Assembly (NCBI RefSeq): GCF_038595065.1
Contig: NZ_CP152003.1
Coordinates: 3,638,001-3,702,000, forward strand
Direction: 5' to 3'
Length of the DNA stretch: 64,000 bases
From: Sutcliffiella sp. FSL R7-0096
GTDB taxonomy: Bacteria; Bacillota; Bacilli; Bacillales; Bacillaceae_I
Position numbers and translations under genes: made by a program. Positions within the stretch are counted from its first letter, which is position 1; each line of letters starts with the position of its first letter. The notes below the pieces were generated by a model that ran no database searches, was not told where the DNA came from, and saw only the letters and a list, made by a program, of their open reading frames with translations. This document shows positions 986-56,699 of the stretch, piece by piece.

Positions 986-1130
986 TTAACTCCCTGTCTC
1001 CTTTCGTTCCGGGTGATCGCTTTCCGCGGGACGGTGCTTGAGCCTCCTCACAACGCTTCAGGGGTCTCAACCAACCGTTATCCCCCGCAGGAGTCGACCA
1101 CCCTGCTCTCCAGTCGACAGGGGGAGTTGG
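986..1130 (+). repeat. Palindromic intergenic element, copy 1
   Basis: Carries the family core words GCTTTCCGCGGG, TTGAGCCTCCTC, GGGGTCTCAA and CCCGCAGGAGTC. Arms pair end to end: TTAACTCCCTGTC with GACAGGGGGAGTT outside, CGGGTG with CACCC further in, ACGG with CCGT near the tip. It lies between the infC promoter and the end of thrS. No target duplication is seen. Confidence 0.85.
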
Positions 1131-1154
1131 TAAAAACATTTCAAAGATTTAACT

Positions 1155-1245
1155 TACTGTCGAAAAACACTCATATACTGTCCGTTTGGAGGGAAATACT
1201 GTCCGAAATTTAAAAATACGAGCGAAAGTGAAGCATTTACTGTCC
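1155..1245. repeat. Short array of TACTGTC words, about 20-bp period
   Basis: TACTGTC occurs at 1155, 1176, 1197 and 1238, so the steps are 21, 21 and 41 bases (a degenerate unit sits in the last gap). The DNA between the words is variable. No gene covers it; together with copy 1 of the palindromic element it fills the gap between infC and thrS. Confidence 0.6.
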
Positions 1246-1308
1246 AAACTAACTGGAATACAAGCCAAACGACAAATCACACTAGTTTTCGAAAAACAAT
1301 TAAATAAA

Positions 1309-1346
1309 GGGAATGCCGTGGCATCCTTAGCCAAGGCACTCCTTAT
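1309..1346 (-). terminator. Terminator of thrS
   Basis: Minus-strand stem GGAGTGCCTTGGC / GCCACGGCATTCC just downstream of the thrS stop, followed by a T-rich tract. Confidence 0.75.
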
Positions 1347-1355
1347 TCAAAAAGC

Positions 1356-3287
1356 TTATCTCTTCGCTTCTTTCACCAAGTTATCAACAAATTTCTCTAG
1401 TGAGATTGTTTCGGATTTTTGTTCGCCGTATTTTCGGACGTTTACTGCGCGATCTTGTATTTCATTGTCGCCTAGCACTAGCATGTAAGGGATCTTCTGC
1501 ATTTGTGCTTCACGGATTTTGTAGCCAATTTTTTCGTTTCTTTCGTCCATTTCAACACGGATGCCTTTAGATTTCAGAAGGTCTTGGACTTCTTTGGCAT
1601 AATCAAAGTGCGCATCTGGCGATACAGGGATCACTTGGACCTGTACAGGTGCCAACCAAGTAGGGAATGCACCTTTGTACTCTTCGATCAAAAATGCCAC
1701 AAAGCGCTCCATTGTGGAAACTACACCGCGGTGGATAACAACCGGACGGTGTTGCTTACCGTCTTCCCCAACATAAGTGAGGTCGAATTTCTCTGGCAAT
1801 AAGAAGTCAAGCTGTACAGTGGATAGAGTCTCTTCCTTTCCAAGGGCAGTACGTACTTGAACGTCTAGCTTAGGGCCGTAGAATGCTGCTTCGTCGATTG
1901 CTTCAAAATAATCAAGACCAAGCTCATCCATTGCTTCCTTCAGCATGCCTTGTGCTTTCTCCCACATTGCATCGTCATCAAAATACTTCTCTTTATTTTT
2001 CGGATCACGGTAGGATAGACGGAAGGAATAGTCATCCAGGCCGAAATCTTTATATACTTCAAGCACAAGGTTCACTACACGCTTTAGCTCATCCTTGATT
2101 TGATCAGGTCGAACGAAGATATGTGCATCGTTCAGTGTCATTCCACGTACACGCTGAAGTCCCGCAAGCGCTCCGGACATTTCATAGCGGTGCATAGTGC
2201 CCAGCTCGGCAATACGAACAGGCAGTTGACGGTAGCTGTGGATACTGTTTTTATATACCATCATATGGTGTGGACAGTTCATCGGACGTAGCACCAGTTG
2301 CTCGTTATCCATTTCCATTGGAGGGAACATGCCTTCCTGATAGTGATCCCAGTGACCGGAAGTTTTGTAAAGTTCCACGCTACCCATTACAGGAGTATAG
2401 ACGTGGTCATAACCAAGTTCCACTTCTTTGTCGACGATATAACGCTCGATTACGCGGCGGATTGTTGCACCCTTTGGTAACCATAGCGGCAACCCTTGCC
2501 CAACTTTTTGAGAGTTGAAGAAAAGGTCAAGCTCTTTTCCAATTTTGCGGTGATCGCGCTCTTTAGCTTCTTCCAACAGGCGAAGGTGCTCATCAAGCTC
2601 TGCCTTTTTGAAGAAGGCTGTACCATAGATACGTTGCAACATTTTATTTTTGCTGTCGCCTCTCCAGTAGGCACCGGCGATGCTTAACAACTTGAACTCT
2701 TTAATTTTCCCAGTGGATGGTACGTGGATCCCACGGCAAAGGTCAAAGAATTCTCCTTGTTCATAAATGGAGATAGTTTCTCCTTCAGGTAGCTCGCGGA
2801 TCAATTCAAGCTTCAGCTCATCATTGAGCTCTTCGTAGCGGCGCAATGCTTCTTCTCTGCTTACTTCCACACGAACAACATCTAGATTTTCACTGACGAT
2901 TTTCTTCATTTCTTTTTCGATTTTCTGAAGATCTTCTGGAGTTAATGATTCCTCCATATCGATATCGTAGTAGAATCCATTCTCAATTACTGGACCGATT
3001 CCTAGCTTCACATTGCCGTATAGGCGTTTGATCGCTTGTGCCATCAAGTGGGCAGTGCTGTGACGCATGATTTCAAGCGCTTCATTGGAGTCTTGCATGA
3101 TGATGCTGATTTCTCCGTCATTTTCTATCGGGGAACGCAGGTCAATGAGTTCTCCGTTATGTTTTCCAGCGATTGCTTTCTTTTTCAGACCCGGACTGAT
3201 GGATGCAGCGATATCTTCTGTTGTTGTACCACGCTCAAACTCCTTTACTGCTCCGTCCGGAAATGTGATTTTCATTAATTCAGACAT
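1356..3287 (-). CDS. thrS: Threonyl-tRNA synthetase
   Basis: A class II aminoacyl-tRNA synthetase that charges tRNA-Thr, 643 residues as in B. subtilis ThrS. Visible parts in order: an N-terminal TGS domain ([13 protein letters not shown]), the editing domain with HLMAQ and [12 protein letters not shown], the catalytic core with [19 protein letters not shown] and [13 protein letters not shown], and the anticodon-binding domain ending [10 protein letters not shown]. The ATG at 3285-3287 is preferred over the upstream GTG because GAGGTG lies six bases before it. A T-box leader lies upstream, and a 164-bp palindromic repeat sits between the T-box terminator and the ribosome binding site. Confidence 0.97.
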
Positions 3288-3314
3288 CCCTGTCACCTCT
3301 TCATTAGAATTTTA

Positions 3315-3478
3315 TTGGTTCATAAAACCCGCAATTACTTTCCGCAACCGGCTTCGCTTTCCGCGGGAGGGCGCTTGAGCCTCCTCACAACGCTTCAGGG
3401 GTCTCAACCTACCGTTACTCCCCCGCTGGAGTCTTCGCCTATTGCTCCAAGGAATTGCTAATGGATTTTTTGAACCAA
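3315..3478 (+). repeat. Palindromic intergenic element, copy 2 (inside thrS leader)
   Basis: Terminal inverted repeats TTGGTTCATAAAA (3315-3327) and its near-complement TTTTTTGAACCAA (3466-3478) bound the element. The interior has the family core words GCTTTCCGCGGG, TTGAGCCTCCTC, GGGGTCTCAA. It directly follows the T-box terminator tract, so it is transcribed as part of the thrS 5' leader. Confidence 0.85.
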
Positions 3479-3479
3479 A

Positions 3480-3765
3480 ATAAAAAAACCCGCCCCTTAT
3501 ATAATATAAGGGACGAGTTTAATATCCGTGTTTCCACCCAAGTTCCCATCTTTTAAAAAATCATAAAAGACGGCTTCATTAGTCGATAACGAGGGATTTC
3601 CCCGTCAACAGCTACTGCAATGTTCACTGTTGAAGTTCAGAGGTGGTTAGCGCCATAATCGTGATAGGAAGCTTGCAGCCGGTGACTTCCCTCTCTAAAA
3701 TCCGTTTTTAGAGCACTCATATCCTCATCGATACTTTTGAGCTATAAAGTTAAAAATGATTATGT
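3480..3765 (-). ncRNA. T-box riboswitch controlling thrS
   Basis: The minus strand shows the T-box word TGGGTGGAAACACGG (3526-3540), followed by a terminator. Upstream is a long paired region resembling Stem I; its 3' side has an ACC triplet (threonine codon) in GCTAACCACCTC. T-box RNAs bind the matching uncharged tRNA and then prevent termination. Its place before thrS and the ACC triplet agree with tRNA-Thr as ligand. Confidence 0.88.
3482..3520 (-). terminator. T-box terminator
   Basis: Minus-strand stem AACTCGTCCCTTAT / ATAAGGGGCGGGTT followed by TTTTTTTA. It is the conditional terminator of the thrS T-box. Confidence 0.85.
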
Positions 3766-3770
3766 AGGTA

Positions 3771-3799
3771 ATTATATTCTCCCCTGAAAGGAAAATCAA
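3771..3799 (-). promoter_or_regulatory. Promoter of thrS
   Basis: Minus strand TTGATT (3794-3799), 17-base spacer, TATAAT (3771-3776). It lies just upstream of the T-box and inside the short gap after ytxC. Confidence 0.75.
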
Positions 3800-3808
3800 G
3801 TAGTCACT

Positions 3809-4645
3809 TTAATCAATTTTACTTTTATTATGCCCAAAATAATGAAAAGGTAAAACAACAGCACGTTCGTCAAAGATGTTCCGGATCGTTTCCACCAGTT
3901 GATGCTCCGTATTGTCTGTATACAGATAGAGTTTTTTTGGTGCAATGGATACTAGAGGAGCTAGCACAACGGAATCAATATAATAGGAATAATTGTTAAA
4001 GTGCGTCCTGTTCATATATTTAATTAGCTGACTCTTTGGAATATGAGAAAATGCCTTATCAAAGAAATCGAATTGGTATTGATAGACGAGATGCAATTCA
4101 TCCATTTTGGATTCGGTCGTTGCCAACAGATCACGGAGTTGGTGAACGAATGATTGGTACTCTTGTTCCAGCTTGTACTCATCAATTGCCGCCTCCACAT
4201 AGACCTGAAGACATTCAAAGTACTCTTTTAACCTGAATGTCAGGAATGAATCGAAAGAAAAAGAGACAGGCTCTAGAAAAAAGGATTCCATCACCTCTTC
4301 CAATTGGACCCCACGATGGTCAATAGATGGAAGGTTTGGGATGTCGGACCGTTCCCCTTGAAGGATCGACTGCAGGATACAAAGGATTTGCTCTTGCTCC
4401 TCCGCCTCTTTATAGTAAAACGTATTTTCCAATACTTGCAAAATCCACTCTTTTTCTTTAGTCCGTTGAATATATTTCTTCAACACCGGGGTAATGGTGT
4501 TCTTGTAAAAATGAATATCCTTCGATTCCAAGACGATTTTTTCTTTATGTAAAGAAAGGATAGAATCACTTTCAGGATTTTGTTCCATGATACTCACATA
4601 AATGGCACTTGCATCCGATTCATTTCGAAAGGAAATCTCAAACAA
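3809..4645 (-). CDS. ytxC: YtxC-family putative sporulation protein
   Basis: A 278-residue soluble protein recognised as YtxC by overall sequence and by its place next to thrS, as in B. subtilis. No enzyme motif is visible. The C-terminal part, rich in aromatic and basic residues (YLYTDNTEHQLVETIRNIF), is the most family-like. The frame is open to 4735, but that extension crosses a transcription terminator. A TTG at 4643-4645 with AAGGGGGG seven bases upstream is the better start. YtxC is linked to sporulation by family annotation; its molecular role is unknown. The usual partners dnaI and ytxB are missing upstream. Confidence 0.85.
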   Translation of the reverse strand: MFEISFRNESDASAIYVSIMEQNPESDSILSLHKEKIVLESKDIHFYKNTITPVLKKYIQRTKEKEWILQVLENTFYYKEAEEQEQILCILQSILQGERSDIPNLPSIDHRGVQLEEVMESFFLEPVSFSFDSFLTFRLKEYFECLQVYVEAAIDEYKLEQEYQSFVHQLRDLLATTESKMDELHLVYQYQFDFFDKAFSHIPKSQLIKYMNRTHFNNYSYYIDSVVLAPLVSIAPKKLYLYTDNTEHQLVETIRNIFDERAVVLPFHYFGHNKSKID

Positions 4646-4716
4646 GTTTGTCCCCCCTTTGGTACACCTGATTCTATATATATGGGTGCAAGGACGGAAA
4701 AATGAATAAATAATGA

Positions 4717-4760
4717 AAAATAAGCGCCAGCCCACCTAATAATGGGTTGGCGCTTATTTT
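4717..4760. terminator. Bidirectional terminator after the lipid kinase gene
   Basis: An 18-bp near-perfect inverted repeat AAAATAAGCGCCAGCCCA / TGGGTTGGCGCTTATTTT, with A and T tracts at its ends. It closes the lipid kinase transcript and separates it from ytxC. Confidence 0.85.
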
Positions 4761-4764
4761 GCTG

Positions 4765-5664
4765 TCATTGCAATGGGAAATCCCCTACGATCACTTCTAA
4801 ATGATCCGGTAGAATGCTAACTGTTGCTGGGGTGTTGGCGGATTTCTCTCCGTCCGTATCAATTTCCTGATTTGGGGTTGCTTCTATATTCAGTTCTTTG
4901 GCACGAAAGTAGACGATATCCTCATTCCCTTGTGCCGGTACTTCCTTTTGAAGCCTAGTTTGAAGCCATGTCCAAAGCTGTGCAATGGATGTTTGCTTGA
5001 TGATCAGTACATCAAGGTGTCCATCCTGAACGCTTGAGAATGGGAAAAAGGAACGGATACCCCCAAGAAAAGAACCGTTACCAATTAGCAGCATGACGGC
5101 CTTCCCTTCATAGGTAGTCGTTTCACTTTCGATCTTCAACAGAAATGGTTCCTCCTCCATCACCGTCTGCCCGGCACTAATGTAATAGGATAACTTTCCG
5201 AGCAATTGTTTTGTTCCACTGTCAATGTTATCTGAGACTTTGGAAACCAAGCCGATTCCCCAAAAGTTCAAAAAGTACTGATTATCGCTCTTTCCTATAT
5301 CCACTTTTTGCGTGTGTTGCTCCAAGATTTGTTCCACTGCTTTTACAGGGTGCTGATCAATTCCCAGCGTCCTTGAAAAATCATTGCAGGTCCCCCCGGG
5401 TATGATGGCAAAAACAGGTCTTTTCTCGAGCGGGGCAAGCGCATTAATTAGTTCATAGATGGTCCCATCCCCACCTGCACCGATCAATAGATCCACATCA
5501 CCGGCCATCTGCTCTACCAGCTTTGCACCATCTCCCTCTTTTTCCGTTTCGTGGATGGCCACTTCTTCAAACTGGCTTAAAAGCATTTCCTCTATCTTTT
5601 CAATGGAATTTATCAACTTTTTGTTCCCGGCATTTGGATTCACGATCACCGCAACTCTTTTCAA
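4765..5664 (-). CDS. Diacylglycerol kinase-like lipid kinase (YtlR/BmrU type)
   Basis: The 299-residue protein has the DAGK catalytic fold signatures: VNPNAG at 8-13, the nucleotide-binding loop GAGGDGTIYELINAL near 62-76, and PGGTCNDFSR near 91-100. The C-terminal half matches the beta-sandwich of YegS/DgkB proteins. It should phosphorylate diacylglycerol or a related lipid with ATP at the membrane; the substrate cannot be told from sequence. The start is TTG with AGGGGAAA upstream. It sits between dnaB and ytxC, where B. subtilis has dnaI and ytxB, and it ends in its own terminator, so it looks like an independent unit. Confidence 0.85.
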   Translation of the reverse strand: MKRVAVIVNPNAGNKKLINSIEKIEEMLLSQFEEVAIHETEKEGDGAKLVEQMAGDVDLLIGAGGDGTIYELINALAPLEKRPVFAIIPGGTCNDFSRTLGIDQHPVKAVEQILEQHTQKVDIGKSDNQYFLNFWGIGLVSKVSDNIDSGTKQLLGKLSYYISAGQTVMEEEPFLLKIESETTTYEGKAVMLLIGNGSFLGGIRSFFPFSSVQDGHLDVLIIKQTSIAQLWTWLQTRLQKEVPAQGNEDIVYFRAKELNIEATPNQEIDTDGEKSANTPATVSILPDHLEVIVGDFPLQ

Positions 5665-5872
5665 AGGTTATTTCCCCTTTTCTTTAGTCTTATAGTAAAC
5701 GATACCCTTTTTTAGTAGTATTAACATCTTTTCAGGATATAGTTGAGGAAGAAATTATAGACTTATTTTTCGTATAGGGTGCGATTGTAATTTTAGGATA
5801 ATCGCACATACAGTGGGAGAAATCTTCGCTCGTTACAAAAATGGGAGCAGTCTGTTATAGATAAAAAAGTTG

Positions 5873-5990
5873 ATTGTAACTTTTCTGGAGGTGATTGGAA
5901 CTAATTTAGGGATGATTGTAACTTTTCTGGAGGTTATTATTACTTTTTTAGTATTATTGTAACTTTTAACAATTGTATTGTAACTTTTGC
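5873..5990. repeat. Array of ATTGTAACTTTT words, about 20-bp period
   Basis: ATTGTAACTTTT or close variants begin near 5873, 5894, 5914, 5936, 5955 and 5973. Two units extend further to CTGGAGGT. The spacing is 18-22 bases and the DNA between the words varies. It fills the 400-bp gene-free gap between dnaB and the lipid kinase gene. Confidence 0.65.
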
Positions 5991-6018
5991 CTTTTCCACT
6001 AGAGTTAGCCCACCAAAA

Positions 6019-6052
6019 AGGCCGCATCACCAAACGGTAGATGCAGCCTCTT
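6019..6052 (-). terminator. Terminator of dnaB
   Basis: Stem AGGCTGCATC / GATGCGGCCT with a following TTTTTGG on the minus strand, directly after the dnaB stop. It implies that dnaB is the last gene of its transcript here. Confidence 0.65.
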
Positions 6053-6065
6053 ATATCTATCCTAT

Positions 6066-7520
6066 TTATTGATCCAGCCTTATCTTCTTCTCTTTCATTT
6101 TTGCCAGACGTTCCATCAGCTTCTGCTTTTCGTCCTCTTCCACTTCCTTGAATTTGTCTGACTGTCCCGCTACAACTTCCGCATCGCTGCTAGCTACCTC
6201 AGAACTGACAAACCGGTTGCGAACCACTTTCCCTGCTTTGGCTTTAGTGGAGCTACTTCCACCTGCACTCTTGGTGGATGGCTTGGTATCTGCCCAATTC
6301 TGGTACTGGCGGTGCTCTTCCTTCGCAAGTTCCATGGCTTCCCCTACGGTTTTCACCTGTTTGCGTGCCCAGTGACTGGCAATTTTCTCCACATATTTAC
6401 GATTTAGTTTCATATCAGTTTTTAACAAAACGTAATAAAGTAGCACATTCACGACACCCGGAGTCAGTTGCTGTTTGAACATGACATCCTCTACAATGCG
6501 AAGATCAGAAGCGGATGGTTCTGATCCACCAGAAAGGTCGGTAAGCATTTGTTTCGGTGATACATTTTCCAGCTGCTGTATCAACTGTTCATCCTTTGTC
6601 GCAGGCTTTTTATCTGAAAACTGCTTCAAGTTCAACGGTTGTGTCTTTTCTACTAGTCCCGGCAACGTATCTTGGTATTCTAATTGATACCAATCCCTTG
6701 CTGTCTTCCTCAGCTTCTCCAAGTTCACCTTCTCATCCACATCAATCACATTCATCATCAGGTCCCGCATTGAAATCGGATCGATTGAATAGATAAAGGA
6801 AAGCTTGACAATCGCTTCCTTTACTTTTGACGTAATGGATTTTTTCGGTATGACGACCTCGGATAACCCTGCATAAAAAAGGTCAAAGTCAAACACTTCT
6901 TGACCTACCTTTGGCTCGCTCCCTGTCTTTCTGTCCAACCATTCTTCCCCTTCTGGCAACGGTAGCTCTTCCATCATCTCTTCATTCGCAGCGTAGGCCA
7001 TATTTTCCGATTGGACGGATTGAAAAACATCACTGAAACTACGAGTCACTTCCTGATATTCATCCATCGGGATAACCTTATCGGAAAAGAATTTTTTAAC
7101 ACTCGCATATTTATTTTTTCCTAGACGGTTGTATAAATAGATAGTCAGCATAGGCTCAGAAAAGAAGGCTTCCGGGGAGAGTGGGGGCTGAAGTTCATAA
7201 ATGAAGGTGCGGATCTGATTATCTTCTTTGACCCACGTCTTTAAAAGACCGATTCCTTCCAACTTGATTCGTTCTTGGTGAATATCTTTTAAATTGCATT
7301 GCATGGTTGTCATAATTCCATGATGCGTAGTCTCCTCGCCCCATAGGCGGTCTTGATCCAGCTCACTCCAAAGGGTCATAAAAAGACTGTATCCCCTGAA
7401 TCCCAGCAATGGCTGATAAAGCATGGTAAGAAGTTTTTGGTCAAACTGCTGAAGCATTCCATTTGACCGTACGATATACCGGTCAACTGGGACCAGCTCT
7501 TTCCAATGGCGATCTGACAT
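6066..7520 (-). CDS. dnaB: Replication initiation and membrane attachment protein DnaB
   Basis: DnaB (484 residues) works with DnaD and DnaI to load the replicative helicase DnaC at oriC and at restart sites in Bacillus; it is not the helicase. Features seen are the N-terminal domain beginning WKELVPVDRY, a first DnaB/DnaD domain near 190-300, a second helical domain near 320-410 with QQLTPGVVNVLLYYVL and KYVEKIASHW (YxxIAxxW pattern), and a charged basic tail with KLMERLAKMKEKKIRLD. nrdR lies upstream, as in B. subtilis, but dnaI does not follow: the gene ends at a terminator and a repeat array. Confidence 0.95.
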   Translation of the reverse strand: MSDRHWKELVPVDRYIVRSNGMLQQFDQKLLTMLYQPLLGFRGYSLFMTLWSELDQDRLWGEETTHHGIMTTMQCNLKDIHQERIKLEGIGLLKTWVKEDNQIRTFIYELQPPLSPEAFFSEPMLTIYLYNRLGKNKYASVKKFFSDKVIPMDEYQEVTRSFSDVFQSVQSENMAYAANEEMMEELPLPEGEEWLDRKTGSEPKVGQEVFDFDLFYAGLSEVVIPKKSITSKVKEAIVKLSFIYSIDPISMRDLMMNVIDVDEKVNLEKLRKTARDWYQLEYQDTLPGLVEKTQPLNLKQFSDKKPATKDEQLIQQLENVSPKQMLTDLSGGSEPSASDLRIVEDVMFKQQLTPGVVNVLLYYVLLKTDMKLNRKYVEKIASHWARKQVKTVGEAMELAKEEHRQYQNWADTKPSTKSAGGSSSTKAKAGKVVRNRFVSSEVASSDAEVVAGQSDKFKEVEEDEKQKLMERLAKMKEKKIRLDQ

Positions 7521-7684
7521 GAAACATCCAAACCTTTCTTTTAAAGAAATAATCGAAAAAGAGAGGCATATAATTTTCCTCTCTTACTTAGGGTTCCTTA
7601 TTGCGAATGACTTATTGAATAACTTTCATACACTTTGTTGCTTTTTCGTACTCATAAAACAACCAATATATTCCTAACTGTCGT

Positions 7685-7828
7685 GCTCTTTTCTTGGCTA
7701 TACTGAATAGATTGCATGTTTGCTTAAGAGTAGGTAAGCGGTGAAAAGTCCAATTGCCGACTTTTCTTGTAAAAAGTCCAATTACCGACTTTTTACTGGT
7801 CAATAGCAACAATCTTTGAGAAAAGAGC
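7685..7828 (+). repeat. 144-bp element with GCTCTTTTC ends, copy A
   Basis: Ends are the perfect inverted pair GCTCTTTTC (7685-7693) and GAAAAGAGC (7820-7828). Inside are two 28-bp units of AAAAGTCCAATTGCCGACTTTT, itself a palindrome with AAAAGTC/GACTTTT arms. The upstream word ACTGTCGT (7677-7684) is shared by the other copies. It fills most of the 312-bp gap between nrdR and dnaB. Confidence 0.85.
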
Positions 7829-7832
7829 CTAC

Positions 7833-8318: not shown

Positions 8319-8723
8319 CTACTTTTTCCCCGAATTCAGTCCGGATCCAATATAGATCATCGATTTATCAATCCGTTCATACATCTGTTTGATCAGTTGA
8401 CGACTGTATCCAAAATCGAAAGGTAGCTTGGTTTCTGTTGTAACGGAAAAATCAACTGCTGTTTCAAAAGGTCGGACAGATATAACAGTGACAATGACAA
8501 ATGCTTTTCTGCCTTTGTTCACTTGCAACGCAATTTCCCCGTGCTCATCAGAAACAGATTTAATCGTTACCCCTTCCATATTCTTAAACAATTCTTGTAA
8601 CGCCTTCATTGCATTCTTATTGGTAGTTTTATAATAACGACTTCGCAGGGATTCTTCCGTATGATTTTCCCGCGTCTCTGAGTGATTGGTCAAAATACCT
8701 TTCAGCTTTTGTATCGCTCCCAC
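8319..8723 (-). CDS. Conserved Bacillaceae protein of unknown function
   Basis: About 134 residues. The block THSETRENHT...LRSRYYK (here TNHSETRENH) and the C-terminal GYSRQLIKQMYERI look conserved in Bacillaceae proteins annotated only as cytosolic. No catalytic motif or membrane segment is visible. The frame stays open to 8840, but codons beyond about 8750 come from a palindromic repeat and its target duplication, so the long N-terminus is artificial. GTG at 8721-8723 is the best guess for the start; a downstream CTG behind GGGAG is another option. It ends 24 bases before the nrdR start and may share its transcript. Confidence 0.6.
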   Translation of the reverse strand: MGAIQKLKGILTNHSETRENHTEESLRSRYYKTTNKNAMKALQELFKNMEGVTIKSVSDEHGEIALQVNKGRKAFVIVTVISVRPFETAVDFSVTTETKLPFDFGYSRQLIKQMYERIDKSMIYIGSGLNSGKK

Positions 8724-8762
8724 TTTAGCCTGACAACCCCTTAATTTGTTGTTTTTTATGTA

Positions 8763-8945
8763 GGCTCTGTTAAACGTCGCTGTTGATTTCCGCAATAGGC
8801 TTCGCTTTCCGCGGGGCGACCTTGAGCCTCCTCGTTTCACTGCGGGGTCTCAAGATTGTCGCTACTCTCCCGCTGGAGTCTACGCCTCTTGCTCCAATCA
8901 CCAGCTAGAGACAGGTTATTATCAACAACTAGCTTTAACAAAGCC
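8763..8945 (+). mobile_element. Palindromic intergenic element, copy 3, with 8-bp target duplication
   Basis: Terminal inverted repeats GGCTCTGTTAAA (8763-8774) and TTTAACAAAGCC (8934-8945) are flanked by perfect direct repeats TTTATGTA at 8755-8762 and 8946-8953. The interior is the family palindrome: GCAATAGGC pairs with a diverged partner, GCGAC pairs with GTCGC, CTTGAG pairs with CTCAAG. The ends and the 8-bp duplication resemble those made by IS6-family transposases; no transposase is encoded. Confidence 0.88.
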
Positions 8946-12328: not shown

Positions 12329-12470
12329 AACTCCCTTTTGCCTTACGCTCCGGGTGTTCCCTTTCCGGAGGGCGCTGCTTGAGCCTCTTCACAACGTTTC
12401 AGGGGTCTCCACCTAACGCTACCTCCCGCCGGAGTCTCACACCCTGCTCTTCAGGCAAAAAGGGGAAATT
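12329..12470 (+). repeat. Palindromic intergenic element, copy 4
   Basis: Core words diverged but clear: CCCTTTCCGGAGGGCG, TTGAGCCTCTTC, GGGGTCTC, CCCGCCGGAGTC. Arms unique to this copy pair with each other: CTCCCTTTTGCCT with AGGCAAAAAGGGG, GGGTGT with ACACCC. It lies in the gap between ytaF and mutM. Confidence 0.85.
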
Positions 12471-16117: not shown

Positions 16118-16260
16118 AATTTAGTGGTTACTTTTCACTGCAGGCACTCGCTTTCCACGGGGCGGTGCTTGAGCCTCCTCACAACGCTCGGGGGTCTCAA
16201 GTCTACCGCTACCTCCCGTCGGAGTCGAGTGCCTTCCGCTCCAATCCACTTTACATAAAT
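16118..16260 (+). repeat. Palindromic intergenic element, copy 5
   Basis: Core words CTTTCCACGGGGCGG, TTGAGCCTCCTC, GGGGTCTCAA, CTCCCGTCGGAGTC. The arms are copy-specific and complementary: GGCACTCG with CGAGTGCC, GCGGT with ACCGC, AGTGG with CCACT. It lies between the hflC stop and the hflC terminator hairpin. Confidence 0.88.
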
Positions 16261-18236: not shown

Positions 18237-18426
18237 TAGCTGTAGCTTGAAGCAAAAGGCCGAGACTCCTTGAAAATGCGAGCATTTTCTGCGTGCGAAG
18301 TATCGCTGCCGCTGCCCTCCTTGTCCTGCGGGGGAGGAGCGACAATCTTGAGACCACACAAGCGTTGTGAAGAGGCACAAGGTCGCCCCGCGGAAAGCGA
18401 AGCCTTTTTGCGAAAAGCAACAGCGG
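18237..18426 (-). repeat. Palindromic intergenic element, copy 6 (reverse orientation)
   Basis: Read on the minus strand it shows GCTTTCCGCGGGGCGACC, GCCTCTTCACAACGC, GGTCTCAAGATTGTCGC and CTCCCCCGCAGG. Arms GCAAAAGGC / GCCTTTTTGC and GCTGTAGC / GCAACAGC pair. An extra 50 bases rich in GC interrupt one arm (about 18270-18315). It lies between the phoR terminator and hflK and fills most of the 400-bp gap. Confidence 0.8.
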
Positions 18427-21181: not shown

Positions 21182-21202
21182 AGAGCTTAGGAACTAAGCT
21201 CT
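21182..21202 (-). terminator. Terminator stem (distal duplicate) with T tract
   Basis: Palindrome AGAGCTTAG-GAA-CTAAGCTCT. On the minus strand it is followed by TTTTTTTCG, so this copy can act as the terminator. An identical 21-bp copy lies at 21413-21433. Confidence 0.75.
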
Positions 21203-21414
21203 CAGACTGTTGACAAACTATAAACTAGTTAGGTTATCTGTTGGAAGAGTTGATCTTCGTTGCAGGAGCTTCGCTTTCCGCGGGCAGTCCGGAAGCCTCC
21301 TCGGGCTACGCCCTGCGGGGTCTTCCATGTCCTTTCCTCCCGCAGGAGTCTTCGCTCCTTCCACTGCGATCAACTAGAGAATTTCATTATTTTAACCTTT
21401 GTCTACACACTGAG
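21201..21414 (+). mobile_element. Palindromic intergenic element, copy 7, splitting a terminator
   Basis: Terminal inverted repeats CTCAGACTGTTGACAAA (21201-21217) and TTTGTCTACACACTGAG (21398-21414) match at 14 of 17 positions. Core: GCTTTCCGCGGG, GCCTCCTCGGGC-TAC-GCCCTGCGGGGTC, CTCCCGCAGGAGTC. Here the inner stem is GGAAG/CTTCC instead of CTTGAG/CTCAAG, and GGAGC pairs with GCTCC. A 21-bp terminator stem is present on both sides. Confidence 0.88.
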
Positions 21415-21433
21415 AGCTTAGGAACTAAGCTCT
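21413..21433 (-). terminator. Terminator stem (gene-proximal duplicate) lacking T tract
   Basis: Same 21-bp palindrome as 21182-21202, directly after the MaoC-like gene, but the mobile element follows it and no T run remains. It would pause but probably not terminate. Confidence 0.7.
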
Positions 21434-23042: not shown

Positions 23043-23092
23043 GATTATTCCTCCCTAACCGATTAATGGACATCTTTTACACCGCTGTTGAT

Positions 23093-23438
23093 TTACGCAC
23101 CGGGCTTCGCTTTCCGCAGGGCGCTTGCGGATCCTCCTCACTACGTAGAGGGCCACTGAAAAAGTACATTATTCTAGTAATCTGTTCTATACCGCTGTTG
23201 ATTTACGCAAACGGCTTCGCTTTCCGCGGGGCGACCTTGAGCCTCCTCGGGCTGCGCCCTGCGGGGTCTCAAGAATGTCGCTATCCCCCCGCAGGAGTCT
23301 TCGCCTATTGCTCCAATCAACAGCTAGAATTCATAAAAAAGATAAGTTATTGGGTTTTTCAGTGGCCTACTTCATTGCGGGGTCTCCGCTAACCGCTACC
23401 TCCCGTCGGAGTCTTCGCCTATTGCTTTAATCAACAGA
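23093..23438 (+). repeat. Palindromic intergenic element, copy 8 (outer, interrupted)
   Basis: The outer element is split: left part 23093-23150 (GCTGTTGATTTACGC, GCTTTCCGCAGGG, CCTCCTCACTAC), right part 23368-23438 (GCGGGGTCTC, CTCCCGTCGGAGTC, CGCCTATTGC, AATCAACAG). The joined length is 129 bp. Copy 9 sits between the halves at the tip of the palindrome. CTGTTGATT pairs with AATCAACAG across the insertion. Confidence 0.85.
23151..23367 (+). mobile_element. Palindromic intergenic element, copy 9 (nested)
   Basis: Perfect 13-bp terminal inverted repeats GGCCACTGAAAAA (23151-23163) and TTTTTCAGTGGCC (23355-23367). The interior is the family palindrome in nearly ideal form: GCTGTTGATT / AATCAACAGC, GCGAC / GTCGC, CTTGAG / CTCAAG, tip GGGC-TGC-GCCC. 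It is inserted in the loop of copy 8. No clear target duplication is visible. Confidence 0.9.
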
Positions 23439-50756: not shown

Positions 50757-50888
50757 ACTGGATTCCCCCTTAATAAAATTACTTACTTCTCTATTTTCTT
50801 GTAATTCCACTAAATTTACAACATATAAGCCGCTAAGATGCGATAAAATGATTGTTAGGTACACGAAAGAAAGGAGCCGACACATCCC

Positions 50889-52196
50889 ATGCCAAAAGCT
50901 CAACCCATGATTATGCCCCCTCAAAGCCGGATTGAACGATTCGGTTTAGAAGCAGTTCCACTAGAATTAAGGAAAACAAAATGGTATGAATATACGATCA
51001 TCCAGATGGCATTTTCCGTGAATGCGGGAAACTTCCTTGTCCCGGCTCTTGCGGTGATCCAAGGGGGGCTTAGTTTTTTCGCAGCATTTCTTTCGACTGT
51101 GATTGGAGCAACACTCGCATTTATTTTTGTCTCTTATTTATCATTGCCTGGTGCAGATCGCGGAATCCCTTCGCAATATGCCATCAGGTCCATCATTGGA
51201 ATAAAAGGATCCAGGTACATTTCCTCTCCCATTCGTACCATCACCTCCCTGTACTGGTTTTCCGTCCAGACGATAGGTGGAACGTTGGTGGTTCAGTTCA
51301 TTTTGGAGAGGACCTTTCAAATCAATGTCCCGTTTTACATGATTGCCATGCTATTGGCTCTCATCATGAGCGGCCTTGCACTGGTGGGGTTTAATGCAGT
51401 AAAGAAAGCAACCAAATATTTTTTGCCACTGCTGATCCTCGGCCAGCTCCTCATGCTTTCCCTTTTATTGAATCATGGAATTACTGGTGGGGGAGTATTC
51501 GGAAAAGGTGGGGGGAGCTGGAACCTGCCAATGATGGGATTTTTCGCTAGCCTTGCCTTTGTCCAGTACGTTTCTGGCGTTTCCTCTTCCGCTGACGTTA
51601 CCCGGTATGCAATTACTTCCAGACAGGGGTTCTGGGGGTTGTTTACAGGAAATGTCTCCGGTTTCATTCTGACAGCATTTTTTGGTGCCTACACAGCCAC
51701 CTTGACCGGAAACTTAAATCCATTTATCGCAACAAGCGATATGACAAACTCAGGACTATTTACTTTCATCATTCTTGGAGCGGCTATGTTATCGATGATT
51801 TCAATTAACTTAAGCAATGCCTATACAGGAGGATTCAGTCTATTGAATTCAGTTCCGGTACTTGGAAGGGTGAAAAGTTCTATCCTTTTTGGTGTTGCAG
51901 GAATCCTCTTGTCCCTATCACCTGCCTTGGTAGAGGAGGCTAAACAATACATCTCATGGATTGGAGCATTTGTCATCCCATTATCTGCGGTGATCATCAC
52001 AGATTTCCTTCTCATTAAAAAGAAGCAGATAGAGCCTAGTGAGGTCCTTCCCTCCTATAACAAATCTGCATTCATCTGCATAGGAATTGGAACCCTGGTT
52101 TATTTCTGCTTGCCGGAAAACCTGTCTCCAGGATTCTTAGCTTTCATCATTACCGGAAGCATGTATATGATGGTATGTAAAAATAGTCATAAATAG
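50889..52196 (+). CDS. NCS1-family nucleobase permease (cytosine/purine type)
   Basis: 435 residues with about twelve membrane helices. The N-terminal segment IERFGLEAVPLELRKTKW and FSVNAGNFLVPALAVIQGGLSF are typical of the NCS1 cytosine permease (CodB-like) branch, with Q and GG in the first unwound helix. It imports a nucleobase or a related small base with sodium or protons; the substrate is uncertain. No deaminase is adjacent. A palindromic element follows directly. Confidence 0.85.
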   Translation: MPKAQPMIMPPQSRIERFGLEAVPLELRKTKWYEYTIIQMAFSVNAGNFLVPALAVIQGGLSFFAAFLSTVIGATLAFIFVSYLSLPGADRGIPSQYAIRSIIGIKGSRYISSPIRTITSLYWFSVQTIGGTLVVQFILERTFQINVPFYMIAMLLALIMSGLALVGFNAVKKATKYFLPLLILGQLLMLSLLLNHGITGGGVFGKGGGSWNLPMMGFFASLAFVQYVSGVSSSADVTRYAITSRQGFWGLFTGNVSGFILTAFFGAYTATLTGNLNPFIATSDMTNSGLFTFIILGAAMLSMISINLSNAYTGGFSLLNSVPVLGRVKSSILFGVAGILLSLSPALVEEAKQYISWIGAFVIPLSAVIITDFLLIKKKQIEPSEVLPSYNKSAFICIGIGTLVYFCLPENLSPGFLAFIITGSMYMMVCKNSHK

Positions 52197-52234
52197 GTTC
52201 CAATAGCGGCACCTGCTTGAAGAGCAGAGACCCA

Positions 52235-52357
52235 GTTGATCGCAGTGGAAGGCGCGCAGACTCCAGCGGGAGGAAGGGACAGGGGAGACCCCCAAACGTT
52301 ATGAGGAGGCTCCCGGACCGCCCGCAGGAAAGCGAAGCGCCTGGAACGGAGATCAAC
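52235..52357 (-). repeat. Palindromic intergenic element, copy 10 (reverse orientation)
   Basis: On the minus strand: GTTGATC, GCGCTTCGCTTTCCTGCGGG, GGGAGCCTCCTC, GGGGGTCTCCC, CCTCCCGCTGGAGTC, GCGC and GATCAAC. Here the inner stem is GGGAG / CTCCC, a third version besides CTTGAG / CTCAAG and GGAAG / CTTCC. It lies between the permease and the small gene at 52375. Confidence 0.88.
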
Positions 52358-52374
52358 ACTCGATAAATCATAAA

Positions 52375-52542
52375 TTACTCGTTAGGAGTATGTTGGCTTT
52401 CCTCTTCTACAGGCTGGTACGCATTGGAACTATATTGCTCGCCTACCACTCCGCTTGAATATGCATCAGTGATTTGGTTATGCACTTCGTTTACGGCATT
52501 ATCATCATAAGAGAAAATTTCTTTTGAATCTTTTTTCTTCAT
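52375..52542 (-). CDS. Small conserved acidic protein, unknown function
   Basis: 55 residues: basic start MKKKDSKEIFSYDD, then an acidic, hydrophilic stretch with VNEVHNQITDAYSSG. No membrane segment. It has the look of the small Bacillaceae proteins made during sporulation or stress, but it is not identified. ATG at 52540-52542 behind AGAAAGGTGG. A longer frame upstream overlaps the divergent gene at 52711. Confidence 0.6.
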   Translation of the reverse strand: MKKKDSKEIFSYDDNAVNEVHNQITDAYSSGVVGEQYSSNAYQPVEEESQHTPNE

Positions 52543-52710
52543 CGGTTTTTCCACCTTTCTGGTTAAGTATCCATCATAGTTTGCTTCTAATGGCAAAGAT
52601 TTAATGGTGGAAAAAATTCCTTTCCTTTTATTTACCTTAGGTATCCATAGAATGTTCGCTGGAGTTATTATACAATGGTGAAAACGGGGAGAAAAAGGAA
52701 GGAAGTCGCT

Positions 52711-53025
52711 ATGTTTTCTTTTGTAATGGACCAAAGGCTAGGAATCCCCTTGCCAAAACTTGACCTGGAATGGAATCGATATAATAAAGAAACACAGCAA
52801 GATATATTATTGGAATGGGAAAAAATACGCGGGAGAATTCCTGATCGCATCAAAGAACTGGAAGAGCAAATCAATACAAAGCAGGCACAACTGAATGATG
52901 AAGCCAATTTTGAACGCTCTTGCCAATTAAACTCAGAGATCGCCGAATATGCAAGCATCATTAATGATCTATGGCTCTGGTACAGAATGAACCAACATGT
53001 ATCTTCTTCCAAAATACATTCATAA
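52711..53025 (+). CDS. Conserved protein of unknown function
   Basis: 104 residues, mostly helical: GIPLPKLDLEWNRYNKETQQDILLEWEKIRGRIPDRI (read in parts) followed by a coiled coil ELEEQINTKQAQL and EIAEYASIINDLWLWYRMNQ. The sequence looks conserved in Bacillaceae, but no function is known. ATG at 52711 is preferred because GGAAGGAAG lies just upstream. Divergent from the small gene at 52375 and convergent with the EcsC-family gene. Confidence 0.7.
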   Translation: MFSFVMDQRLGIPLPKLDLEWNRYNKETQQDILLEWEKIRGRIPDRIKELEEQINTKQAQLNDEANFERSCQLNSEIAEYASIINDLWLWYRMNQHVSSSKIHS

Positions 53026-53086
53026 ATGCTTAACGGTTGGTGTAAAAATACGTAAAAGCAACAAAGTTTACGAAAATAGCCTATAT

Positions 53087-53121
53087 GAAAAGCGGAGCTC
53101 TGTAGGGGAGCCCCGCTTTTT
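53087..53121. terminator. Terminator between the gene at 52711 and the EcsC-family gene
   Basis: AAAGCGGAGCTC pairs with GAGCCCCGCTTTTT; T tract on the plus strand, A tract before it. Confidence 0.8.
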
Positions 53122-53151
53122 CTTCTTGTCCGAAAACACCTCTGTTGAAAT

Positions 53152-54012
53152 TTAAAACAATTCACATTCGGATTCGTCCAGTTCACCATTTTCGACCATA
53201 TGCCTCATCATGTAATAATAATGGGAGAACTCCGAGACCTCCTTGGTCCAGTAATAGTTTGTCCCAGCAGCAGTCATCATCCCGAGTAATGGGACATTTT
53301 TCACTTTTTTGCGTCCAATAACCGCAACAAATAAGAGTTTAATCAAATGCATCAGAGGCTGTTGCAACCATACTGTTGGATGGTCTTTGTCTGTCAAGAC
53401 ATCAAAATAGTGATCGGTATCCTGGCCGAGTTCACTTTTTAAAGCTTCCCAACGCTCATGCTGATACTTCTTTGGAATCGTGGCACCATAAAACAACTGC
53501 AAGGATTTCACCATCTCTACCGGTGTACTTGCCCTATAGCCATAAGACATCGCAACAAGCTGGGTTGTACGGATATTCAGGGCAGCGAAAGCGGGAATAT
53601 CCATTGCAAGGGCGGAGAACTTTGCGGTACCCGTCATCCCACCTTGTACCACGGCATAAAGCTTTTGCTTGGCAATTTGCTGATCTGCGATAAACGCTTT
53701 TTGTGATAAGGGCAATTCCCGAATGTCTTCTATTTTTTCTATTTTTTCATTATAGCTTTGGGCCATCTTGACAATCCGTTCTTCTGCTTGCTGCTGGAAG
53801 GAGGATTGCTGAATGATGCCATGTAAATGGAACAGCCATGTGTCAATTTGGGAGAAAAACAATTCCTTCGTTTCGTCTGGCAATAAGTCAAATGCCTTGT
53901 CCACCCAAAGATCTAATGTATCAGAAAACTGGGATGGTTCGTATGTATATAGCTTCTCTTCCCACTGTGAAAGTTTATGTTTCCATTGTCCTGTCTGGTT
54001 CCTATTAGACAC
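53152..54012 (-). CDS. EcsC family protein
   Basis: 286 residues. The middle holds the family block GGMTGTAKFSALAMDIPAFAALNIRTTQLVAMSYGY (about 130-165, read in parts), a glycine and alanine rich amphipathic stretch, and a hydrophobic segment LLFVAVIGRKKVKNVPLLGMMTAAG. EcsC in B. subtilis lies with the EcsAB transporter, but no ecsAB is near here, so this is a stand-alone paralog with unknown role. GTG at 54010-54012 follows GAGGGGAAGAACA. Confidence 0.83.
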   Translation of the reverse strand: MSNRNQTGQWKHKLSQWEEKLYTYEPSQFSDTLDLWVDKAFDLLPDETKELFFSQIDTWLFHLHGIIQQSSFQQQAEERIVKMAQSYNEKIEKIEDIRELPLSQKAFIADQQIAKQKLYAVVQGGMTGTAKFSALAMDIPAFAALNIRTTQLVAMSYGYRASTPVEMVKSLQLFYGATIPKKYQHERWEALKSELGQDTDHYFDVLTDKDHPTVWLQQPLMHLIKLLFVAVIGRKKVKNVPLLGMMTAAGTNYYWTKEVSEFSHYYYMMRHMVENGELDESECELF

Positions 54013-54075
54013 TGTTCTTCCCCTCACTTTTCCAACTGCTAGTTTTCTCCATTATACCATAGCCATTCAGCACAA

Positions 54076-54115
54076 AAAAATAATCCCCGATCTGTTCAAA
54101 AAAACAGGTCGGGGA
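54076..54115 (-). terminator. Terminator of ackA
   Basis: Stem TCCCCGACCTGTT / AACAGATCGGGGA followed by TTATTTTTTTGTG on the minus strand. Confidence 0.88.
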
Positions 54116-54122
54116 CAATCAA

Positions 54123-55310
54123 TTAAAGAGCTATCTTCATTACGTCTCTAGCAATCATCACTTCTTCATTAGTAGGAATGATGATGACTTTAACTGGGGA
54201 GTGTGGATAGTTTATGAACGCTTCTTTTCCGCGAACCTTATTCAATGCAGGGTCCCAGTATACGCCCATGAATTCAAGTCCTTGAAGAACTCTTGCACGG
54301 ATAACATCACTGTTCTCACCAATACCTGCAGTAAAGATGATCGCATCTACTCCAAACATTCTTGCAGCATAAGAACCGATATATTTATGGATACGGCTAG
54401 CGAATACTTCTAATGCCAGTTCTGCACGCTCGTTACCTTCTTTAGCAGCAGATTCAATATCTCGAAGGTCGCTGGAGAATCCAGAAACCCCAAGGATACC
54501 ACTGCGTTTGTTCAGTACTTCTAAAACTTCGTCCGCTGTTTTCCCTGTTTTCTCCATGATGAATGGAATCAACGCAGGATCAATATTACCGGAACGAGTT
54601 CCCATTGCTACACCTGCAAGAGGTGTGAAGCCCATGGAAGTATCAATGGACTTTCCGCCTTCGATGGCAGCGATACTTGCACCGTTACCTAGATGACAAG
54701 AAATTAGGCGAAGTTGCTCAACCGGTCTGCCTAACAATTCTGCAGCGCGCTCGGAAACATACTTATGGGACGTACCATGGAAACCGTATTTACGAATGCC
54801 ATAATCTTCATAGTACTCGTATGGCAGGCTGTAAAGGAAAGATTTTTCCGGCATGGATTGGTGAAATGCCGTATCAAATACCGCAACAGCTGGTACTTTC
54901 GGTAAGATCTCTTTGAACGCTTTAATACCTACGATGTTTGCAGGGTTATGAAGTGGCGCTAGTTCTGAAAGCCCCTCTAATTGCCCAAGCACCTCGTCTG
55001 TAATCAGCACGGAATCATTGAATTTTTCTCCACCGTGAACCACTCTGTGTCCGATTCCGGTAATTTCATCAAAACTTTGGATAATATCAAGGTCGATCAG
55101 TTTTTTCAATAAGATTTTCACTGCTACTCCATGTTCAGGAATGTCTGTGATTTCCGTTACTTTTTCACCGTTCACAGAGATGGTGAAAACAGCATCGTTC
55201 AAACCGATACGTTCCACTAATCCCTTTGTAATAACATTTTCACTAGGCATTTCGAACAATTGAAACTTAAGAGAAGAACTCCCTGCATTTATTGCAATAA
55301 CTTTTGACAT
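54123..55310 (-). CDS. ackA: Acetate kinase
   Basis: Interconverts acetyl phosphate and acetate with ATP production. 395 residues: [13 protein letters not shown] (phosphate loop), [11 protein letters not shown], catalytic [34 protein letters not shown] and [28 protein letters not shown]. Start ATG at 55308-55310. A cre-like site upstream suggests activation by CcpA in excess carbon, as in B. subtilis. ytxK lies upstream on the same strand, the usual ytxK-ackA pair. Confidence 0.97.
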
Positions 55311-55363
55311 GACGATATGTACAACTCCTTTTATATGGTCACACTTGGATGGATGATTAAATG

Positions 55364-55391
55364 ATTTTACACTCTACCTATCTTGTGCAAA
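55364..55391 (-). promoter_or_regulatory. Probable ackA promoter
   Basis: Minus strand TTTGCA (55386-55391), 16-base spacer, TAAAAT (55364-55369). Moderate match. Confidence 0.4.
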
Positions 55392-55461
55392 GTTCCGTTA
55401 ATATATATACCTTTTTCATTTAAACACCGTCATACTGCATTTGCAAGAGGCTTCCCTTGAT

Positions 55462-55474
55462 GGTAACGCTTACC
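55462..55474. promoter_or_regulatory. cre-like CcpA site upstream of ackA
   Basis: GGTAACGCTTACC is a dyad (GGTAA-CGC-TTACC) that closely resembles the B. subtilis cre TGTAAGCGTTAACA on the minus strand. It lies about 70 bases before the proposed -35 box, the kind of place used for activation. Confidence 0.5.
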
Positions 55475-55508
55475 TTATATATTCGTTATTTTCTGAAGAA
55501 TGACATAG

Positions 55509-56504
55509 TTATTTATTGTTCTTTTGCTCAGAAAACCACTGGTTGATTTGCCCCATGATTTTTTCCATTGCCTGCATGTTAGAGAAGCTTGGCAGGTTTA
55601 CAAGCAGCGCTTCTTTTGGAGGTTCAATACCAATTCCTTTCTTTTGAAGGACAAGGATGCTTTTTGCATGGTTCTTGTTTTGGAACATCGTTTCCGGAAG
55701 CTGTAACATACCTTGTATATACGCTTCCTCTTTTATTAGCGTGTTTACCCTTTTTGACTCCTCTTCCTCAAACATCGAATTTGGCACTAAGAATAAAAGG
55801 TGGCCGCCCGGTTTTGTGTAACGCAAGCCTTGTTCTATGAACAGATAATGCGCATAGGAATGTCCTTCTTCTGCTTTTAGCTTGAAGTTAGCTGCATTGT
55901 GATCATCTGGATAATAGCCTACCGGTAGATCACTAACAACTACATCAACTGGTTCGACAAACAAGTTGCTTAAACCGTCTTGATTAAATAAACTGATTGC
56001 CTGCTCTTGGAGGTTGGCATTATTATAGGCAAGTTTCACTAAAAGGTCGTCCACATCCACACCAAACGCCTCTAACTTTTTGTTGGGCTGGTGGTTAAGG
56101 ACAGCTGTAAGGAGGTTTCCAGTACCGATTGCAGGGTCCAACATGGTCAGCTGTTGCAAATGTGAGGTGTATTTTCCAACGAGGTATCCCATAAACATGG
56201 CGATCGCATCTGGAGTCATTTGATGGTTGGCTTGAACTGCATCCTTCATACCTTTTAGAATGGCAAGCTGAAATCCTTTTCTGATTTCTTCTTTTTGAAG
56301 GGAAGTGATAGTTTGTTTCCTGTACTCTTTTTCCAGTCTTCGTTTGGTTACTTCAGAAACCTCTTCTTGGATCACTGCTCCGTGGAAGAGGTTTTCTGCG
56401 GTTTCTGCGAGTGCCTCTAGGTATGTACAATCCAGTTCTTCTTGTAGAATTTGTGCTGTTGTATCAAATAAAGTAAATGTATTTTCTAATTTTGTAATGG
56501 ACAT
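55509..56504 (-). CDS. ytxK: YtxK, class I SAM-dependent methyltransferase (adenine DNA MTase fold)
   Basis: 331 residues. The SAM pocket LDPAIGTGNLLTAVLN (about 122-137) and the motif SDLPVGYYP (about 196-204) correspond to motif I and the N/D-P-P-Y motif IV of N6-adenine methyltransferases, but motif IV reads DLPVGY instead of NPPY, so a DNA target is doubtful. GGHLLFLVPNSMFE matches the type I HsdM-like core. No specificity or restriction gene is near. Paired with ackA, as in B. subtilis. Confidence 0.9.
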   Translation of the reverse strand: MSITKLENTFTLFDTTAQILQEELDCTYLEALAETAENLFHGAVIQEEVSEVTKRRLEKEYRKQTITSLQKEEIRKGFQLAILKGMKDAVQANHQMTPDAIAMFMGYLVGKYTSHLQQLTMLDPAIGTGNLLTAVLNHQPNKKLEAFGVDVDDLLVKLAYNNANLQEQAISLFNQDGLSNLFVEPVDVVVSDLPVGYYPDDHNAANFKLKAEEGHSYAHYLFIEQGLRYTKPGGHLLFLVPNSMFEEEESKRVNTLIKEEAYIQGMLQLPETMFQNKNHAKSILVLQKKGIGIEPPKEALLVNLPSFSNMQAMEKIMGQINQWFSEQKNNK

Positions 56505-56553
56505 TATGCCACTCCTTTTCTTTTTGGCTACTTGTTGAGGAGGATTTCATTTC

Positions 56554-56699
56554 GGTTTACTCCTGTTGATTTCCGTTCCAGGCGTTCGCTTATCCTTTGG
56601 GCGGTGCCTGAGCTTCCTCACAACGCTTCAGGGGTCTCAACCTACCGCTACCTCCCGCACGGGTCTCACGGGTTGCACTTCTATCAACAGGTAAATTAC
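56554..56699 (+). repeat. Palindromic intergenic element, copy 11
   Basis: Arms GTTTAC / GTAAAT and CTGTTGAT / ATCAACAG, then core words CTTATCCTTTGGGCGG, TGAGCTTCCTC, GGGGTCTCAA, CTCCCGCACGGGTC. Diverged core, so perhaps older. GCGG pairs with CCGC. It lies in the gap between tpx and ytxK. Confidence 0.8.

Follow-up and report, generated by a model that had tools for sequence, protein, structure and literature searches.

The 64,000-base stretch considered here (the window; bases 3638001-3702000 of the 4.9-Mb chromosome of Sutcliffiella sp. FSL R7-0096) contains eleven copies of a palindromic element whose arms differ between copies and remain complementary within each copy. These copies form one family, which probably consists of miniature inverted-repeat transposable elements (MITEs, non-autonomous DNA transposons) built around one common hairpin of ~130 bp. 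The flanks of 154 copies were read, and three end types (A, B and C) were found around a shared foldback core of ~130 bp. The inverted ends resemble those of autonomous elements (IS1595 for type B, IS1182 for types A and C), and the elements are short (154-247 bp where both ends were found, in a loose screen), without a protein, present in high copy number (at least 155) and mostly intergenic. Target duplications and empty sites were also found, the sites being studied in detail for copy c and seen for element k.

Copies of the hairpin and covariation of its stems

The covariation of the family is real. In an alignment that was fitted to the structure, and is biased towards it, two-sided changes occur at 37 of 44 stem pairs; the alignment comprises 132 matches from 100 sources (127 distinct rows, including at least one reverse-strand reading of a counted copy and two rows cut off by locus ends, with the remaining loci of the own genome left out). 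Cells with two-sided changes number 425 in the true structure versus 122 (standard deviation, sd, 8.7) in shuffles and 42-116 in slid structures, and 91.0% of cells are paired versus 81.5% and 38-47%, respectively. Because of the bias towards the structure, an alignment-free test was added, in which right arms were exchanged among 50 cluster representatives in 5000 permutations (138 of 155 copies were usable and 17 were dropped). The inner part of the hairpin scores -13.15 kcal/mol with its own arms versus -11.43 (sd 0.33) with swapped ones, and the outer part -9.18 versus -7.16 (sd 0.28), so that the mean own pairing beats every one of the permutations in both parts alike. Own arms are better than the mean swap in 35 of 50 (inner) and 38 of 50 (outer) representatives, and thus a good share of copies show no own-arm advantage singly.

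Twelve copies of a single subfamily and the structure of the copy at 23194 served to build a covariance model, R1. Its search of the window returned ten whole copies, all with E <= 8e-9 and starting at 993, 3331, 8779, 12334, 16124, 18306, 21246, 23194, 52233 and 56562. The eleventh copy, h, is split: its right part is matched by R1 at 23346-23437 (E 0.0015) and its left part begins at 23083. These starts agree with the eleven positions given in the first-pass annotation of the window, which had treated the copies as one family, had proposed that their pairing is kept despite sequence change, and had seen no gene in the window that explains them; all of this holds. Its statement that the elements produce false open reading frames (ORFs) is likewise matched by ORF 8319-8840 (-), which extends into the element at 8763. 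The elements and related features of the window are as follows:

993..1120 (+): core copy a; 61.6 bits; outer arms GGGTG-ATCG / CGA-CACCC
3331..3457 (+): core copy b; 92.3 bits; outer arms GCAATT/AATTGC
8755..8762 (no strand): left target duplication of c, TTTATGTA
8763..8945 (+): putative type B MITE c, complete, 183 bp; IS1595-like ends GGCTCTGTTAAA ... TTTAACAAAGCC; core 8779-8904, 139.4 bits
8946..8953 (no strand): right target duplication of c, TTTATGTA
12334..12461 (+): core copy d; 42.8 bits; outer arms CCCTTTTGCC / GGCAAAAAGGGG
16124..16248 (+): core copy e; 61.6 bits; outer arms GGCACTCG / CGAGTGCC
18240..18424 (-): core copy f; R1 match 18306-18424; outer limit judged by eye
21183..21201 (no strand): hairpin GAGCTTAGGAACTAAGCTC, left copy of the duplicated target of g
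21203..21412 (+): putative type C MITE g; IS1182-like ends CAGACTGTTGACAAA ... TTTGTCTACACACTG; core 21246-21376
21414..21432 (no strand): hairpin GAGCTTAGGAACTAAGCTC, right copy of the duplicated target of g
23083..23150 (+): core copy h, left part, split through insertion of i
23151..23367 (+): putative type A MITE i, 217 bp, in the apical loop of h; IS1182-like ends GGCCACTGAAAAA ... TTTTTCAGTGGCC; core 23194-23323
23368..23437 (+): core copy h, right part
52233..52360 (-): core copy j; 48.6 bits; CGGTCC GGGAG / CTCCC subfamily
56524..56715 (+): element k; core 56562-56690

Several of these sites could be followed into related genomes. G008 and G009 share the occupied site of copy a, and G010 and G011 have a core at a roughly equal position; the site of copy b is filled in all five genomes compared, with a different subfamily in G011 and G010; and copy h is intact at the equivalent position in G008, G009, G010 and G011. 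In G008 and G010, the 192 bases of element k are missing and the flanks overlap there by 12 bases. Two copies in the window are damaged, the one at 18306 being interrupted and the one at 56562 degenerate. The right arm of copy f is interrupted (window ~18265-18325) by a small unrelated repeat around GGCAGCGATACTTCGCACGC, which has eight matches with up to 3 mismatches in fetched loci (L272, L276, L462, L473 and four more).

Beyond the window, R1 recovered 149 matches in the 150 candidates that were scored out of 2067 in the own genome, a lower bound; with the window copies outside the scored list, there are at least 155 copies in all. The word GCTTTCCGCGGG, present in 6 of the eleven window copies, occurs 135 times in the genome versus 0 for the reversed control. 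Copies were found in all 16 genomes of the genus (57 to at least 150 per genome) and, as for the core words that the first-pass annotation had suggested looking for in relatives, an 18-base word was found in Sutcliffiella, Neobacillus, Priestia, Peribacillus, Rossellomorea, Mesobacillus, Lederbergia and others, among at least 119 stretches. Among the matches listed, it is also present at L065, L069 and L117, metagenome bins named Lachnospiraceae, Rhodobacter and Clostridiales, which are possibly misbinned Bacillaceae contigs. Five plasmid records have a match to the family, two of the five lying under features named hypothetical protein, and the phage records searched gave zero matches.

Element ends and the two transposase families

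Type B elements are ~185 bp long, with ends GGCTCTGTTAAA and AT-rich target duplications of 8 bp. The two flanks agree at 7 or more of 8 bases in 27 of 57 loosely screened rows, which include some type A copies, versus 108 of 3192 swapped ones. Among 37 loci of the order that match PF12762 (the IS1595 model) and were scanned, 14 have an end pair like GGCTCTGTTAAA, in most cases followed within a few bases by TGTTGAT, and exact 8-bp duplications were seen at 11 of these 14. The left outer arm of the core, CTGTTGAT, matches the inner part of the IS1595 ends and, since such ends are shared by those loci, looks like part of an IS1595 end. The first-pass annotation had seen no link to a transposable element, a view that was not borne out, given this match and the many copies with IS1595-like or IS1182-like ends.

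The site of copy c is cleanly empty in eight sister genomes (G005, G007, G008, G009, G010, G013, G015 and G016), where the flanks (1-563 and 747-1301) are joined with an 8-base overlap; the element is present in the own genome and in G011. At the same locus, the two flanks lie close together without a clean overlap in G004, G006, G012, G014 and G017, and G003 gave element matches only, among the matches listed. As other parents of type B, ISL3 and IS6 were considered, and no parent was found in the 5 of 10 ISL3 and 9 of 30 IS6-model loci scanned for the core and for type B ends. L382 (G016), which had looked like a parent, was also rejected: it is a different insertion element, which we take to be IS3-like by its end letters, lodged in a type B copy at the apical loop; the loop may therefore draw more than IS1182.

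The ends of type C (CAGACTGTTGACAAA) were found on 15 copies, 13 of which are bracketed by direct repeats of 12-27 bases; in many copies this flanking repeat is a whole palindrome. Several type C copies have T- or A-runs outside the flanking hairpin and appear terminator-like by eye; a terminator screen that required the T-tract right at the element end was negative for all 15 type C and all 17 type A copies. For type A (ends GGCCACTGAAAAA), a repeat of at least 7 of 8 bases was seen in 7 of 19 loose rows versus 10 of 342 swapped ones. Type A copies are often nested: 9 of 17 strict rows, one of them window copy i in copy h, lie between the halves of another core, compared with 2 of 31 for type B (one of the two is a doubly counted type A copy) and 0 of 15 for type C. 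At L286 (own genome 1668723-1669158), a three-level nesting was read by eye: a duplicated hairpin flanks a type C core, whose loop contains an IS1182 remnant that has a core of its own.

The own genome has two IS1182-model matches only, which are weak remnants, each beside a core. Intact IS1182 elements with type A ends and a core exist in G008 (four copies) and in G011 (one). More specifically, the G008 elements are identical and 1.86 kb long, with the core followed by a 484-aa IS1182 transposase on one strand, and each of the four lies between two halves of a core-like hairpin (in one case the right half is degenerate). The counterpart for type C is L094, an element of 1746 bp that combines type C ends with a repeated hairpin at its flanks; its IS1182 transposase gene (322 bits, with its middle masked in the record) has the core in its leader. 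The insert in this leader resembles a type B element with degenerate ends and a 7/8 target repeat, as judged by eye. Close IS1182 transposases occur in 50 of 397 genomes of the order; 30 loci were searched with the model and 19 leaders were read. Four leaders (L315, L316, L323 and L329, the last with stops in its transposase) bear a core, their end lying 281-350 bases before the gene, and three fit neither this pattern nor the core-free one. At L315, L316, L319, L320, L331 and L332, half a core adjoins the left end as the target (by eye). End pairs 1.4-2.1 kb apart were also noticed in other loci (L057, L076, L092, L108, L122 and L243). Two of these were examined as candidate full-length elements and rejected: L076 consists of two MITEs around a decarboxylase-like gene, and L243 of a chance end pair around an acyl-CoA dehydrogenase-like gene.

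Orthologous sites and genomic setting

In 33 orthologous pairs of occupied sites from five genomes, the mean identity is 85% for the core and 92% for the flanks, and the core falls more than 8 points below the flanks in 13 of the 33. At copy b, the core of G011 is 76% like the own b and 98% like two dispersed own copies, with flanks at 92-93%, and that of G010 is 78% like the own b and 97% like dispersed own copies. Elsewhere in the region the flanks group the own genome with G011, and G008, G009 and G010 together, so the core pattern at b departs from the species grouping. At copy h, three makes of core are distributed over four species, each self-complementary, and the cores of G008 and G010 are 91% alike, with differences mainly in the apical loop. 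To judge from these alignments, exchange between dispersed copies would be the simplest reading of the core differences at b and h; repeated insertion at one place may be an alternative. Of the copying mechanism that the first-pass annotation had offered, in which one arm is rewritten from the other, a part is borne out, in that sister species hold whole cores of different subfamilies at one locus. Two chimeric copies, L037 and L038 (own genome 4006926 and 2344818), have a left half of the type C and a right half of the type A subfamily.

Changes in place were counted with apparently converted orthologues left out. Seven comparisons of the own genome with a relative gave 22 broken pairs, 8 G-T, 2 one-sided Watson-Crick and 6 two-sided Watson-Crick changes, five of these six stemming from copy a versus G009. 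With nine comparisons and both reference structures, one-sided broken changes number 50 in the true register versus 62-96 in slid ones. In a separate count over all six ortholog groups, there are 36 two-sided Watson-Crick changes, 2 other two-sided and 43 one-sided changes. The sample is small, and from it we lean towards a need for pairing at the level of the element over a need at each site.

The median distances from the core to the neighbouring ORFs are 72 and 90 bases. According to simple ORF calls, and among the 154 of 155 copies flanked by a called gene on either side, 112 lie between tandem, 32 between convergent and 10 between divergent genes. Those between tandem genes are strongly oriented, 93 being opposite to the genes and 19 along them (p 7e-13). 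In 16 head-on cases, with the origin assumed near base 1, 11 are opposite to the genes and 5 along them, and the bias seems to follow genes, not replication. A terminator-like hairpin with a T-tract adjoins the right end of 14 of 31 type B copies and the left end of 3 of 31. Therefore, the target may account for the orientation, which does not by itself imply that an RNA is at work. Elsewhere in the window, at the Rfam gathering score, an L20 leader was identified at 693-831 (-) and a T-box leader at 3506-3740 (-).

Competing explanations and known systems

If the family consists of MITEs, its history might be reconstructed as follows. A type B MITE may have inserted into IS1182 leaders, and internal deletion would then have produced types A and C, as suggested by the core-bearing versus core-free leaders and by the insert in L094. 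The elements would be mobilised in trans by IS1595 and IS1182 transposases, of which the own genome keeps the two IS1182 remnants. The hairpin would act as DNA, either as a cruciform or as a single-strand hairpin, and serve as a target for hairpin-seeking IS1182 enzymes. Pairing would be maintained mainly while a lineage is active, helped by whole-core exchange between sites and perhaps by template switching between arms, and fixed copies would afterwards lose pairs. A bolder version can be entertained tentatively, although we regard it as doubtful: the hairpin may be a module that parasitises transposons, moving between the IS1595 and (more than once) the IS1182 families, serving as a landing pad, with an apical loop that draws hairpin-seeking elements into harmless places, and propagating laterally as it replaces resident cores, its arms being free to change if paired.

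A number of observations count against the MITE reading. In the loose screen, 77 of 154 copies have no recognisable ends, and their mobility is thus assumed from likeness. The core was found in 0 of the 33 IS1595 loci searched (of 37), which is why only IS1595-like ends, and not descent from a known IS1595 copy, are claimed here; the own genome was searched for IS1595 with zero matches, and the IS1595 loci of the sister genome G004 are without type B end pairs. On the IS1182 side, 12 of the 19 leaders read are without a core, their end lying 109-122 bases before the gene, and 7 of the 16 genomes of the genus have no IS1182 match, each with at least 100 copies of the family, so that present movement in these seven is doubtful. 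At fixed sites, two-sided Watson-Crick changes number 20 in the true register versus 0-3 in slid ones (the same nine comparisons); copy a of G009, possibly a partly exchanged copy itself, contributes most of the 20, and some upkeep of pairing at fixed sites is possible. Finally, two U-G pairs are conserved (118 rows each); read from the opposite strand they are A-C, which would not be expected if the hairpin served as DNA only.

The last two points would also suit a structured RNA, that is, pairing kept for work as an IS1182 mRNA leader, a 3' end stabiliser or a small RNA, a function that the first-pass annotation had listed as one possibility. The strong covariation, the position of the core in the 5' leader and on the transposase strand of intact core-bearing IS1182 elements, and the orientation bias all point in this direction. 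However, the Rfam search of the core copies in the window found no family at the gathering score and, below it, chance-level matches only, for one copy. On the strand shown, G-U cells do not exceed A-C cells over 42 pairs (82 versus 153, driven by a few columns; by sign, 16 pairs versus 19, with 7 ties). Moreover, most solo copies oppose the genes, and their transcript would be the complement of the strand found in IS1182 leaders, and changes in fixed copies are mostly one-sided. An RNA function thus keeps the orientation bias and the U-G pairs on its side, lacks an Rfam match and a G-U excess, and in our judgement is unlikely. A DNA role is favoured since IS1272, of the IS1182 family, is reported to insert into hairpins (in the portion of PMC4923244 available) and the apical loop is a real target here; by this analogy, we lean towards a hairpin that acts as DNA.

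About equally unlikely is an origin of the pairing without selection, in which the likeness of the arms is due solely to template switching from one arm to the other (quasipalindrome correction) and to ectopic conversion. According to the accessible part of PMC8604942, such switching in inverted repeats homogenises the arms and inverts the spacers, and both the different core subfamilies at orthologous loci and locus h, with its differences concentrated in the loop between G008 and G010, are what such processes could leave behind. Steady action would nevertheless predict that fixed copies stay paired, against the 22 broken versus 6 two-sided changes of the seven comparisons, and homogenisation alone does not explain why GCTTTCC, CCTCCTC, GGGGTCTC and GGAGTC are kept across subfamilies. 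The outer arms might also be target palindromes around a fixed inserted core and not parts of the element, given that type C is flanked by hairpins and that IS1272 inserts into them (PMC4923244, as far as the available text goes). This is very unlikely: the boundary of element c lies outside the arms (an argument limited to copies with recognisable ends), and the inner stems co-vary too. REPINs are moved by RAYT proteins, and intergenic hairpins in high copy number, together with one Y1_Tnp gene in the genome, could suggest REP/REPIN-type elements mobilised by such a Y1 (RAYT) transposase. We give this next to no credence: the 3.3-kb Y1_Tnp locus is without a core (by eye) and has its own GGGTCAGACCC-like repeats instead, so that the sole Y1_Tnp gene of the own genome is not flanked by the family, and many copies have target duplications and DDE-type ends. 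That gene, which is RAYT-like, lies at L039 (own genome 4620007-4620336), and the GGGTCAGACCCC-like repeats adjoining it are unrelated to the core.

Bacterial hairpin repeats with covariation are easily taken for new RNAs. In the present family, the covariation is found in mobile DNA, which leaves target duplications, has empty sites and, at fixed loci, shows signs of whole-hairpin exchange. Should the hairpin be a landing pad common to two transposase families, the reason for the hairpin-seeking of IS1182 becomes directly testable, with hundreds of natural targets. In addition, the family may account for some of the false genes in Bacillaceae annotation. No description of this hairpin-MITE family came up in the searches made of open-access papers, and a search with the core word gave one unrelated paper only. 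What is combined here in one family is hairpin covariation, two transposase families and self-nesting.

The family can be set beside several known systems. Like MITEs derived from insertion sequences and like IS1595 elements, type B has IS1595-like ends, 8-bp duplications, no gene and a high copy number; unlike in IS1595, where the loci searched are without it, it has a long co-varying hairpin. Types A and C share their ends and transposase with the IS1182 family. Within that family, insertion into hairpins and terminators, as described for IS1272/TnSha1, is the closest parallel; in the available portion of that report (PMC4923244), however, the target is partially deleted without duplication, whereas type C has a duplicated hairpin and type A repeats of 8-9 bp, and the part of the text at hand describes neither a core in the leader nor nesting in the element's own kin. 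The bcr1 repeats of the Bacillus cereus group and Bhal-1 of B. halodurans, compared by description and not by sequence, are alike in being intergenic Bacillus repeats with predicted folds and tens of copies (PMC2267715, as far as the accessible text goes). Finally, REPINs, as presented in the accessible part of PMC3116915, are likewise short, palindromic and intergenic and evolve within a genome, but the family described here differs from them in having ends and duplications of the DDE type.

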